DNA from: Ophiosphaerella korrae | Taxonomy: Eukaryota > Ascomycota > Dothideomycetes > Pleosporales > Phaeosphaeriaceae | Assembly: GCA_028456385.1 (NCBI GenBank) | Contig: JALNQF010000008.1 | Coordinates: 248,001 to 312,000, forward strand | Length of the DNA: 64,000 nt | Direction of reading: 5' to 3' | Shown: one piece after another, positions 12,597 through 49,837 of the stretch | How positions within the stretch are numbered: position 1 is the first letter of the stretch | Layout: each line of letters begins with the position of its first letter | The notes under the pieces: generated by a model | What the model saw: the letters and a program-made list of their open reading frames with translations, nothing else | Databases searched by the model: none | What the model was told of the DNA's origin: nothing | Translations under genes and position numbers: made by a program

Positions 12597-12748
12597 GGTG
12601 AGATGGCCGAGTTGGTTATGGCGCCAGGTTAAGGTCTTCCTTAGCACATTCTCCTGGTCACGAAAGTGGCGTGGGTTCGAGTAGGTTACCACCACGTCTG
12701 CAATCGTTATCTTGTCTAACAATTGCTTAATAGGTCCCACTCTCATCA
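12597..12748 (+). tRNA. tRNA-Leu(AAG) with anticodon intron and T-loop intron
   Basis: The acceptor arms pair as GGTGAGA (12597-12603) with TCTCATC (12741-12747), with one G-T pair, then discriminator A. The D-arm (GCC...GGC) and anticodon stem CCAGG/CCTGG are intact. The loop TT-AAG-G gives anticodon AAG, reading CUU. A 17-nt intron (12635-12651) sits at the canonical position after base 37. The long variable arm (CAC-GAAA-GTG) is class II, as expected for Leu. The T-stem 5' half GTGGG and TTCGA end at 12680. A 53-nt insertion follows, and the T-arm resumes as GT-CCCAC at 12734. Without the insertion the T-arm is perfect. T-runs begin at 12786. If the insertion is not removed, the gene is a pseudogene. 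Confidence 0.85.
12681..12733 (+). other. Spliceosomal-type intron in the T-loop of tRNA-Leu(AAG)
   Basis: This 53-nt insertion begins GTAGGT, has a branch-site-like CTAAC at 12716-12720 and ends TTAATAG. Length, donor, branch and acceptor match the pre-mRNA introns of adjacent genes. Its removal joins TTCGA to GTCCCAC and restores the T-arm. It lies between T-loop positions 58 and 59, not at the 37/38 site used by tRNA splicing endonuclease. Confidence 0.7.
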
Positions 12749-21879: not shown

Positions 21880-24800
21880 CTATTGTAGCTTGACCATGAC
21901 ATACGGAATTTCAACATCCTCGCCCGTCTGGTCCTCAGCAGTGATTTCGAAAATCACGTTCTTCTGGTGCCCTGGAACAGCTCTCCTGCTTACGTGCTCA
22001 ACGAGCTTGCTCATCCTATACAGAGTCAGTATGCCCGCGGGAAAAAGACGATACAAACACTTACTTCATGCCCATGCGATCCTTCACCTTGGCTGGTGCA
22101 TAGAAAGCTGCATATAGCAAGCTGACACCAGAGCTAACCATACCCACTGAAAGCCCCTTTTGATCAAAGTAGTCAATAAACTCTCGCAGTGTAACATCTT
22201 CCACCTCGAACCGATCCCATAGCCTGTCAATCGTAACTTCTCCACTCTTTCCGAGGTACTTGCCCTTGGGACTGGCAATCGGCTCACTGAAACCAAAGAA
22301 AGGCAACGCCAGGTTGATGAATCCGTTCTTGTATTGTTCGATGTCCGTCTTGCCATCGATGATCTTGTACAACTCAAGATTGACAAGGCCCGTGACAAGT
22401 GCCGTAGTCGTGGCGATAGCTGGGATAATCTTGCCTGCAATGAACTTGGTCTTGAGCCGATCCGCTGTTTCGATCTTGTAGTTCTCTGCACGAAGGTTGC
22501 TTGCTGCCGTAATGAAGTCAATGTGGTGGTTGGTGTCATCATCCTTCTCAAATTCCACTGGCTCAAGCTTAAATCCGGCTAGCGACTTGGGTTCTGGAAG
22601 CTGCTTGATGACACTTTCCAAAGAGTCGTTCTCAGGTTGAGTGGCGTTTGGATCTGGATCTGAGTCGCTTGCTTGGATCCTGACAGTAGGATCAGGCTTG
22701 AAGTCCGGCACAATCATGTCGTTCAGGACCTCTACATAGTGTTCGCGAGTGGCATTCGGCTTGATCCCGTAGTTGAACGCATGAAGGTGAGCAGCTGCCT
22801 CCACATACGTAAAGTGGGTGGGGCTGTTAGGATCGAACTTCAAGGCGTCTGGCGCGCGTTTGGGTCCTGACCAGAACTGTTGTCCAGAGCCGGTTGTAGA
22901 ACCTTTGGGGAAGTTGTAGAGCAATTGCGCAATCTGGTGGTTGTAGCTCTTCTCGAATTGATGGCGGGCCCAGATGATGCAGTCGTCGTATGATAGCGGC
23001 TTCTCAGTTACCAAGAAATCTCGTAAAGTATCCAGAGTCTGTTTCTCGTTGCCCGACTGCTTAAGAGATGAGCCGAGATAATCAGGCTGCGTCAAATATA
23101 GATTGACAACCTCCGGTCCCTTGACAAAGAGTGAGTCAAATGCTTCACGTGCCCAAGCAATAGTATGCTCAATACGGTTCGGGAAACTCCTCAGTGTGCA
23201 CATAGGGAAAGACTTCTCGGGTGGATCTTGTGAGGAAGAGTATGACTCGGTGATGAACGGGAGAACGACTTGTGTATTGCCCTTGGTACCAAGGGTACCG
23301 CTGTCAAGCAGAGACTTACGGAAGAATACACATCGTCGGTCAACGTATGTGCGCGCCTCCACGTTATCCAGAGCATTCGTAACAGCATCCAACTCATTCC
23401 AGAAAGTCTCGTTAAAGATGTGCTCGGTGTCTGGCCCAACCTTGTCCTGCAGTGTTACAATCTTGCCACGAAGATCTGGGTTCATTGCCTGTACTGCCTT
23501 AGCCGCAGCGTCACTCTTCAGTTTGCCAACATCTGTAGGCCTGAATAGGAACTGTCGATTCAGGTTGCTCTTCTCGATTTGGTCGTTGTCGGTCACTGTA
23601 ATTCTGCCTTCAGGTCCCGCTCCTAATCCCATCATAGCCCAGTTTTTCAGCATTTCGCAGCCAATAGCGCCTGCACCAACGAGGAATTCCTTGATATTGC
23701 CTAGCTTTTTCTGGTACTCTTGGCCGAGTACCGCAATCTGTCCGTCGTAGCGGGAGCCAATCGGGGCGCATTGCTCTTCCGAGCGTGCTGTTGATGTTGG
23801 TATCGACTCCAATGAATCGAAGTATAGGAACTGGACGATGGGATGGAACTTTCCAGACACAGATTTGAGGACCTCTTGCGCAGCCATGCCGCCAAAGAAA
23901 GCAGCTACAGGGCTGAGGTCTCCGCGTGCTTGATAACTCAGCTCTTTGATCAATTTTTCGTCGAGCTCAACCTTCTCCTCTCCTTGGGCAGCAATCTCCA
24001 GCGCAATTTTGAGAACCTCTGTTGCATCTGCATCATGGTGTGGTCGCGGAAACTCGCCCTTGTGGAGGTTTGCAAACTGATGCAAAGCCTGGAACCCAAT
24101 GTGAAGCTGTTGCGGTCGGTCAAACTTGGCGAAGTCGGAAATAAGCAGTTCAGGCTTCTTTAACTGCTTGCTGAACGGCTCGAAGTCGATGATCTTGGGC
24201 ATCTTGACCTGGGCGTACTGACCACCTCCTTGGTAGGCACCTAACCCAGATACATCGCCGATAGAGAAGGTGTATGGGCCCTTGACCTCGATCTTTCGTG
24301 GTGCACAGCCATTAAGACCTTCCATGCCCTTTACTTCAGAGAACGTGACCCAGTCGCCATCCTCAAGCCCGTGCCTGGTCTCATCTAGCGCTGATACCAA
24401 GCCTTGCTCATCAATGCCTGCTATTATGCCGTTTGTGACGTTCTCGCCAGTGGGGTCGCCGATGGTGAAACTTTTGCCGAAATCGGTGAAGATGGAGCCG
24501 AAGAGGCCATATGTGTCGGTGATAACGATGTAGATGCCGTTCTCGTGGCAGTAGTCTGAAATCTTGATTTGATCTTCGAGCGACGTGTTTGTGAGAACGA
24601 TGACTTGGAACTGCTTAAGCTGCGCCAAGTCTGACGTCAGGTCCTTTCCACTGAATTCCTGCACAGGCGTGTATGGGTTGAGTTCCGAGACTCGAGGAAC
24701 CGTGACAGATGCACGAGGCTTCCCCACGTCCTCGGGGTGTAAGAAGAACTGCGACGACAGATCGGCGAGGGCAGCAGGCTGGGGATCGAACAGCGTCAAC

Positions 24801-25036
24801 GACTTGACGCCAGCAAGCGCGATGTTCTTGGCAATCTCAACACCAAGGCCTCGCAGACCAGCGACGAGGACGTTGGAGGAGCCCATGCGCTTCATAGCCT
24901 CGTGGCCGAGCACATACAGCTGCCTACTGTACAGGGACTCATCGATCTCGCCATTGCTGCCGGACGCTTCTTTGAGCTGCTCAACAGCTGTGGCAGGACT
25001 GTCGACCTGCATGTTTTCCTTGCTGGTGTTAGCCAT
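21880..25036 (-). CDS. UBA1: Ubiquitin-activating enzyme E1
   Basis: Exons 25036-22065 and 22015-21880 give 1035 residues, the normal E1 length. The inactive adenylation repeat opens with [17 protein letters not shown]. The active one carries the ATP-binding [18 protein letters not shown] and the adenylate-contacting [17 protein letters not shown]. The catalytic cysteine is in [16 protein letters not shown] (about Cys613). The ubiquitin-fold domain is completed by the last exon, ending IPYVMVKLQ; without that splice the frame would end early at MGMK. It activates ubiquitin with ATP and loads it onto E2 enzymes. The ATG at 25036 is chosen because homology begins soon after it. An upstream ATG at 25192, joined through a good 75-nt intron (25112-25186), would add an in-frame extension. 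Confidence 0.93.
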
Positions 25037-25192
25037 GTCCAAAAGTGGGTGTGGGTGTAGCAGTGGAGAGGCGAAGGACAGCTCAAGGAGGCCCAACAGA
25101 TGTCGAGTGATCTATGGTTACAAATGCACAGCCCCACCAACGGCATGGCGTCAGTCAACAACGCGCCAAACACGTCTCATACTTACAGCCAT

Positions 25193-46370: not shown

Positions 46371-46451
46371 TGCCCTCTGCCAGAATCGAACTAGCGATCT
46401 TATCATAGCATGTAATACTAGTGATACGCTTTACCACTAAGCCAAGAGGGC
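46371..46451 (-). tRNA. tRNA-Thr(AGT) with 9-nt anticodon intron
   Basis: Perfect acceptor stem GCCCTCT/AGAGGGC, D-arm TGGCTTAGTGGTAAAGCG, and anticodon stem TATCA/TGATA. The loop CT-AGT-A gives anticodon AGT (Thr, ACU). A 9-nt intron (46407-46415) lies at the canonical 37/38 site. The T-arm GCTAG-TTCGATT-CTGGC is uninterrupted, which makes this gene a control for the two T-loop-interrupted tRNA genes in the window. An oligo-T terminator lies 8 nt downstream. Confidence 0.92.
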
Positions 46452-49292: not shown

Positions 49293-49705
49293 CTATTGCT
49301 ATGCGTCAGTGAAGGAGATTTAGTGTCGTTTCTGGCTTATATCTGTATTCTTTCATCGTTGCTTTCGGTCTTTTGTATACCATCGTTCTCAATATATCCC
49401 AGGTTATTTCTTGACACGTTTGATGTTCGTGACCTGGGGTGGGCACATGTATACGTGATTTGCAAGCACAGTTCAAAATCTTTTAACTTCCAACAATCCG
49501 AAGTGATGCATGGCCAAGGATCATACCCTAGAATGTTCATTGTGAGAAAAAGATGTTAGTATGCATCAACTGCATATCTGTAATCTTTTAAACAGAAAAC
49601 CTTCGTCGCAAAAAGTTTGCGGCAAATTTCTGCGGTGCTCCTTTCATTTGATGGAATAGGGTATAGGCCAATAAGACTGAAAAAAAAAAGAGCAAAAATG
49701 AATGT
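49293..49705. other. Kinase 3' flank and tRNA terminator
   Basis: Spacer between the kinase stop and tRNA-Thr(CGT). A-runs at 49694-49698 and before 49689 (T-runs on the minus strand) are Pol III terminators for the tRNA. No gene is seen. Confidence 0.6.
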
Positions 49706-49837
49706 TGCCCACTCGCGGAATCTATACAATGTTAGAACAAAGTCTCGAATCCAAGGCTTATCAAGTTTCTTACCGAACCGCGGATCTTCGCATGTCGAGA
49801 ATACGAGTGCGACGCTGTACCCCTAAGCCAAGCGGGC
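49706..49837 (-). tRNA. tRNA-Thr(CGT) with anticodon intron and T-loop intron
   Basis: Read on the minus strand from 49837, the acceptor GCCCGCT pairs with AGTGGGC (49713-49707; one G-T pair), then discriminator A. The D-arm GCT...AGC is intact. Anticodon stem TCGCA/TGCGA closes loop CT-CGT-A, anticodon CGT (Thr, ACG). An 8-nt intron (49794-49801) lies at the canonical site. T-stem CGCGG and TTCG are followed by a 52-nt insertion, after which ATT-CCGCG completes a perfect T-arm. Five T's lie 8 nt downstream. Without removal of the insertion the molecule could not fold, so this is either an expressed, spliced tRNA or a recently interrupted gene. Confidence 0.85.
49722..49773 (-). other. Spliceosomal-type intron in the T-loop of tRNA-Thr(CGT)
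   Basis: The 52-nt insertion reads GTAAGA at its 5' end, carries TTCTAAC about 10 nt before its end, and finishes TATAG. It splits the T-loop between G57 and A58. Donor, branch and acceptor match pre-mRNA introns such as that of NBP35. The 3' part (TTCTAACATTG) resembles that of the tRNA-Leu insertion (GTCTAACAATTG). Confidence 0.7.

Follow-up and report, generated by a model that had tools for sequence, protein, structure and literature searches.

The transfer RNA (tRNA) gene tRNA-Thr(CGT) described here lies on the minus strand of a 64,000-nucleotide (nt) stretch of DNA, the window, which is C778:248001-312000 of a 63.03-Mb, 974-contig Pleosporales assembly; the census reported below covers this one genome. 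Its 5' exon (49774..49837, tRNA positions 1-57) supplies the acceptor 5' strand, the D-arm, the anticodon arm, the T-stem 5' strand and TTCG, and is itself split at 37/38 by a canonical 8-nt tRNA intron (TTCTCGAC, 49794..49801), as placed by ARAGORN on the excised sequence; this short intron is absent from the initial annotation. A 52-nt intron (49722..49773, GTAAGA...TTCTAACATTGTATAG) cuts the T-loop at 57/58, and the 3' exon (49706..49721) provides the remaining T-loop, the T-stem 3' strand, the acceptor 3' strand and the discriminator A. The T-loop intron has the donor GTAAGA, a branch-like TTCTAAC 10 nt from its end and the acceptor TATAG, in agreement with the insert and the position given in the initial annotation. 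Once it is excised, the minus strand of 49706-49837 is called as tRNA-Thr(CGT) by ARAGORN and, as had been predicted, both stems are restored, the T-stem in 5/5 pairs (CGCGG/CCGCG) and the acceptor stem in 7/7. The oligo-T noted earlier is also present: a T5 run starting 7 nt past the discriminator base and then a T11 run (49679..49698, minus strand), read from the sequence, likely form the RNA polymerase III terminator of the gene.

A tRNA-Leu(AAG) gene on the plus strand of the window is also interrupted in its T-loop. The 5' exon (12597..12680, positions 1-58, canonical intron included), which recurs as an identical 84-nt stretch on contig C135, contains a canonical 17-nt anticodon-loop intron (12635..12651, from ARAGORN) and is followed by a 53-nt T-loop intron at 58/59 (12681..12733; donor GTAGGT, branch-like GTCTAAC, acceptor AATAG) and by a 3' exon delimited by excision and stem count (12734..12748). 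The same window provides an uninterrupted control, a minus-strand tRNA-Thr(AGT) gene with a canonical anticodon-loop intron only (46371..46451). As this gene is all that the Rfam tRNA model and ARAGORN each detect in the raw window, both tools miss the interrupted genes. A covariance probe built for 58/59 introns (R1) recovered the Leu intron at 37.9 bits and did not detect the Thr intron at 57/58.

When GTRNG...YAG segments of 40-130 nt were excised from both strands of the window, with the donor imposed as GT[AG]NG, 2 of 2173 excisions created a tRNA recognized by ARAGORN, namely those of the Thr and Leu T-loop introns. Excision with four further donor/acceptor motif pairs, or with bare GT...AG, added matches only at the ordinary Thr(AGT) gene (46371-46451). 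It could be supposed that the inserts are chance GT...AG strings or an assembly or sequencing artefact, as the data come from one assembly only. However, the same excisions in 20 dinucleotide-preserving shuffles of the window created a tRNA in 2 of 47,676 cases, and the 21 interrupted loci on 16 contigs described below share one architecture while their introns diverge between copies. Artefact or chance is hardly credible as an explanation.

Census of interrupted tRNA genes

Based on our genomic searches, the assembly contains at least 23 non-canonical introns, each 46-54 nt long, distributed over 21 tRNA genes and 16 contigs. Eighteen are in the T-loop (16 at 58/59 and 2 at 57/58), 4 in the D-arm and 1 in the anticodon. 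The earlier view of the Thr gene as a second, independent case is thereby strengthened. All census counts are lower bounds, since the tRNA family search of the genome scored only 63 of 1896 candidates and missed known genes, the window Thr(AGT) gene among them. It returned 55 matches; the 19 on contig G000:C92 (87.9 kb, probably the mitochondrial genome) were set aside and the other 36 were read, 34 and then 2. ARAGORN called 31 of the 34 loci directly and two of the remaining three are interrupted tRNA genes, while the last 2 of the 36 contained no ARAGORN gene. The D-arm introns were encountered incidentally rather than by systematic survey.

T-loop introns were sought with three short patterns that fixed the T-loop and GTANG only and that cover positions 57/58 and 58/59. 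These gave 52, 86 and 34 hits; apart from the two window genes, every hit was read (51 + 85 + 34 = 170 loci). tRNA genes that regain their stems on excision account for 11/52, 2/86 and 4/34 of the hits, the two window genes included. As acceptance was based on the T-stem or on a successful ARAGORN call, the acceptor stem provides the more independent check. Fifteen of the 170 loci were accepted, 13 by ARAGORN and two (L079 and L194) by their T-stem and by reading, the latter pair giving an ARAGORN tRNA only once a second intron was also removed. Loci not accepted include L086 and L094, repeats for which the ARAGORN call gave no amino acid, and 5/5 T-stems with no tRNA upstream. Five AT-rich loci (L035, L036, L048, L230 and L231) are similar to tRNAs and to one another around the T-arm and are perhaps tRNA-derived repeats that have been point-mutated.

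The short patterns identified T-loop introns in Gly(GCC) (three genes), His(GTG) (two), Glu(CTC) (three), Leu(TAA) and Leu(TAG), and also in Ile(TAT), Arg(TCG), Asp(GTC) and Lys(CTT). A fourth Gly(GCC) copy (L228, C790:101431-101498, plus strand), found by a copy search without a donor requirement, carries the 18th T-loop intron, which is of the GC-AG type (GCAAGT..TACTAAC..TTCAG). The Leu exon search added the second Leu(AAG) T-loop copy on C135 (L053) and a Leu-like copy (L054, C334:636691, plus strand) with a D-loop insert (GTTAGT..TACTGAC..AAAG); the anticodon of the latter reads AGG and its B-box is altered, and it is probably degenerate or recoded. From the family search came Pro(TGG) (L049), whose anticodon is split between bases 34 and 35 by an intron (GTAAGT..TCTAAC..CATAG), and Lys(TTT) (L050), with an intron at 14/15 (GTAAGT..CCTAAC..CCAG). 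Extra D-arm introns are found in the His(GTG) gene on C279 (L079, at 25/26) and in the Lys(CTT) gene on C285 (L194/L229, at 11/12). These two genes thus contain three introns each, one of the spliceosomal type in the D-arm, the canonical one at 37/38 and one of the spliceosomal type in the T-loop.

As to the source of the DNA, a ubiquitin-activating enzyme gene in the window (22061-25111) has Pleosporales protein matches, the best named one being from Ophiobolus disseminans (90%). Scans of viral and prokaryotic contigs for Gly- and Glu-type T-loop introns found 0, which is uninformative on other fungi because these collections are not meant to hold them.

Splice signals and the endonuclease alternative

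Twenty-two of the 23 introns have GT-AG ends and one has GC-AG ends. The donors seen are GTACGT, GTATGT, GTAAGT, GTAGGT, GTAAGA, GTAAGC, GTTAGT and GCAAGT, and every intron closes in AG (11 TAG, 11 CAG and 1 AAG). A branch-like YTRAY motif is present in 23/23 by raw count and lies 9-14 nt from the intron end in 22; in the Asp intron it lies at 24 nt, and TAATAAC is also found about 11 nt from the end, by eye. Since GTANG was imposed in the three pattern searches, the donor uniformity of the T-loop set is partly built in. No donor constraint applied to the GC-AG Gly intron or to the D-arm and anticodon introns, the last two groups having emerged from the family search, the copy search for Leu or adjoining sequence, and the branch motif, the acceptor, the 46-54-nt length and the acceptor stem were all outside the three patterns. 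Candidate messenger RNA (mRNA) introns at 5 of the 8 window gene joints tried have comparable donors, GTACGT, GTACAC, GTATGT, GTGTTA and GTACGC, with CTAAC before the acceptor in 4/5. By raw count, a YCAC recurs not far behind the donor, near +11 to +14, in 11/17 T-loop introns.

The U2-type donor, branch-like and acceptor signals across the genome, together with the one GC-AG case, support the spliceosomal-type intron that was first proposed for the Thr gene. Given these signals, the inserts are very probably U2-type spliceosomal introns that lie in nuclear RNA polymerase III tRNA genes, next to ordinary introns of the endonuclease type, and that the spliceosome excises. It may be asked whether they are instead ectopic tRNA introns that the tRNA splicing endonuclease removes via a bulge-helix-bulge, as in Cyanidioschyzon merolae and archaea. 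The same tRNA genes mostly carry an intron at or near 37/38, and ectopic D- and T-arm introns occur in a red alga and in nucleomorphs, according to the available parts of two papers (PMC4090602, PMC3978253). However, the 4-base-pair central helix of a bulge-helix-bulge (intron nt 2-5 with 3' exon nt 2-5) is complete in 0/23 introns, with 3 pairs in 1/23, and an endonuclease mechanism explains neither the GTANGT/YTRAY/AG signals nor the GC-AG case, nor why all lengths fall within 46-54 nt. Removal by the endonuclease is accordingly most improbable. Group I and group II self-splicing introns were also rejected, as their catalytic core is well over 100 nt and the introns here are only 46-54 nt; Rfam at gathering thresholds gives the Thr(AGT) tRNA alone in the window.

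Between tRNA families the spliceosomal-type introns are mostly dissimilar. Among 239 cross-family pairs, 3 reach p<=0.005 and 10 reach p<=0.05, about chance level, and the only convincing likeness is between the His and Glu T-loop introns (best pair p=5e-5 over 20,000 shuffles, among the 239 pairs). When the branch motif was retained in the comparison, 128 cross-family pairs had a mean z of 1.5. A general introner family, with many near-identical copies in unrelated genes, is not supported, only the His and Glu T-loop introns being alike; as most introns are mutually unrelated, an origin from a spreading family is not shown.

Integrity and copies of the interrupted genes

After excision, the T-stem has 5/5 pairs in 21/21 genes and the acceptor stem 7/7 in 20/21, with 6/7 in Pro. 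ARAGORN calls a tRNA in all 21 excised genes, although the anticodon or identity is misplaced for both His genes, Lys(CTT) and Pro because of their canonical introns. T-runs of at least 5 occur within about 60 nt downstream in 21/21 genes versus 3.8% of random window 48-mers.

Where a gene is present in several copies, the exons are conserved while the T-loop introns have diverged. With canonical introns excluded, the Leu copies have exon differences at 0/81 positions versus 8/53 in the T-loop intron (Fisher p=4e-4), and the His copies 0/72 versus 12/51 aligned positions (Fisher p=1e-5), the His T-loop introns differing by 12 mismatches and 3 gaps. All 8 of the 53 differences between the window and C135 Leu introns are transitions. 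Similarly, the Glu genes L109 and L122 have 0/71 exon versus 11/51 T-loop intron differences (Fisher p=3e-5), and the three Glu T-loop intron pairs have 6-11 mismatches over about 51 positions, with 2 gap columns in one pair. Across the four Gly copies, exon sequence on the 5' side of the T-loop intron does not vary, while the canonical introns do; three of the Gly T-loop introns differ from one another by 11-13 mismatches and 6-11 gaps.

Every copy found is interrupted for Glu(CTC) (3/3), Gly(GCC) (4/4) and His(GTG) (2/2), and Thr(CGT), Pro(TGG) and Lys(TTT) are represented by one copy each, also interrupted. The copy searches were a limited first look, from which an intact copy could escape, yet the Lys(TTT) search did retrieve an 85% relative. 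An uninterrupted Thr(CGT) gene elsewhere, one half of the condition that the initial annotation had set against its own proposal, did not appear in such a search: the 64-nt 5' exon had 1 match in the genome, itself. The label Thr(cgt) that ARAGORN gave to one locus (L032) suggested an intact Thr(CGT) gene, but reading showed this locus to be Arg(CCT) with a short intron. It is likely that Glu(CTC), Gly(GCC), His(GTG), Thr(CGT), Pro(TGG) and Lys(TTT) are without an intact copy in this genome.

These counts bear on whether the interrupted genes are pseudogenes, with functional uninterrupted copies elsewhere. As far as the available part of a 2014 review describes them, eukaryotic D- and T-arm insertions are mostly in one of many synonymous copies and have been taken for pseudogenes (PMC4090602). 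In line with this, the Leu-like copy on C334 (L054), altered in anticodon and B-box, looks degenerate, and Asp(GTC) and Lys(CTT) also have uninterrupted genes (L041, L034 and L029). However, no intact gene was found for the six isoacceptors above, and His(GTG) is, to our knowledge, the sole standard eukaryotic histidine tRNA. Exons identical between copies with diverged T-loop introns, intact stems and retained T-runs also argue against decay, and we consider it very unlikely that the set consists of pseudogenes. The uninterrupted Asp(GTC) gene L041 (C778:15791-15872, minus strand) has an A-C mismatch in its T-stem, by eye, and the stem of the interrupted L125 is perfect.

Besides L054 and the uninterrupted Asp and Lys(CTT) genes, several points weigh against reading these loci as functional genes with spliceosomal introns. 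The B-box (GGTTCRANNCC) is not intact: in each of the 18 T-loop cases the intron cuts it after the first six or seven letters, and this disruption should lower TFIIIC binding. A polymerase III transcript with a last tRNA exon of 15-16 nt that is spliced by the spliceosome would be unusual, and splicing itself is something we infer from sequence. The canonical introns are also identical within the Leu pair and within the His pair, so exon identity could partly reflect local gene conversion rather than selection. Lys(TTT) has an A12-C23 mismatch, by eye, and the Pro acceptor stem lacks one pair; for Pro alone, a single long anticodon-loop intron is another possible reading, and anticodon assignment for His, Lys(CTT) and Pro relied on inspection of the sequence. 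The copy searches left out Ile(TAT), Leu(TAA), Leu(TAG), Arg(TCG) and Asp, and with 974 contigs the assembly may be incomplete and intact copies possibly missed. Finally, reversed-pattern controls gave 96, 365 and 66 hits versus 52, 86 and 34 for the real patterns, so the evidence lies in the tRNA surrounding a hit and not in the number of hits.

Proposed route and known systems

If the introns are spliceosomal, RNA polymerase III would transcribe each gene from the A-box and the remaining 5' part of the B-box, of which GGTTCRA is spared by insertion at 58/59, to the oligo-T terminator. The spliceosome would then excise the 46-54-nt intron via the GTANGT-type donor, the YTRAY branch site and the AG acceptor, which would rebuild the T-loop, D-arm or anticodon. 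The short intron at 37/38 would be taken out separately by the tRNA splicing endonuclease, and the ends would be trimmed by RNase P and tRNase Z. Spliceosomal splicing of a polymerase III transcript is known for U6. The introns may have originated when excised introns reverse-spliced into exposed tRNA loops, or by spread from one tRNA gene to another; either would agree with their insertion in loops and with the likeness of the His and Glu introns.

The best-supported reading is that nuclear tRNA genes across this genome carry spliceosomal introns, several of these genes being essential, judging by their decoding roles. It is probable that cytosolic translation in this fungus depends directly on the spliceosome, as the copies found of His(GUG), Glu(CUC), Gly(GCC), Thr(CGU), Lys(UUU) and Pro(UGG) would need splicing, and the C279 His and C285 Lys(CTT) transcripts would each be cut three times by two splicing systems. 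In the usual division, the spliceosome serves mRNA, and a protein endonuclease and a ligase serve tRNA. A 2026 review, in its available part, still classes tRNA splicing as spliceosome-independent (PMC13149111). No earlier report of spliceosomal introns in tRNA genes was found in a search of titles and abstract starts, with subscription journals mostly outside its reach. If the proposal holds, the border between mRNA and tRNA splicing would be crossed in essential genes, translation capacity would be coupled to the activity of the spliceosome, and tRNA finders restricted to anticodon-loop introns would miss essential genes. These genes would also offer a clean system for intron gain, with short targets of known structure, exposed-loop sites, and interrupted as well as uninterrupted copies within a single genome.

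The closest counterparts by site are the D- and T-arm introns of C. merolae and cryptophyte nucleomorphs, with up to three introns per tRNA gene; as described in the part of the source available, in C. merolae they are bulge-helix-bulge introns and in Guillardia theta they measure 3-24 nt (PMC4090602). The tRNA genes described here likewise have D- and T-arm sites and up to three introns, but the introns are 46-54 nt long, have spliceosomal signals and do not fit a bulge-helix-bulge. Introner-like elements, reported in the available part of PMC4457414 as spreading spliceosomal introns, occur in the same fungal class, Dothideomycetes; unlike them, the introns here mostly lack similarity across genes.

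Spliceosomal introns in other genes that do not encode mRNA are already known. In ascomycetes, spliceosomal introns are found in nuclear ribosomal DNA (rDNA; Cubero 2000 and Bhattacharya 2000, as cited in the available part of PMC11889510); that paper also discusses reverse splicing as a way in which rDNA introns spread. The rDNA introns, as described there, are alike in being spliceosomal introns of an ascomycete non-mRNA gene, and differ in their ribosomal RNA (polymerase I) host and their sites. Fungal U6 small nuclear RNA genes have spliceosomal introns as well. In this genome the single U6 match (G000:C185:41983-42081, plus strand), a contiguous 99 bases spanning the whole family model, contains none. 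The introns of U3 small nucleolar RNA genes are, in the excerpt available, normal spliceosomal introns located almost exclusively in one 5' stem-loop (PMC5832005). Like the U6 and U3 introns, as far as these are described, those reported here are GT-AG introns with a branch site in genes for small structured RNAs; unlike them, their hosts are tRNA genes of many isoacceptors, and the insertion is in the B-box promoter and T-loop.
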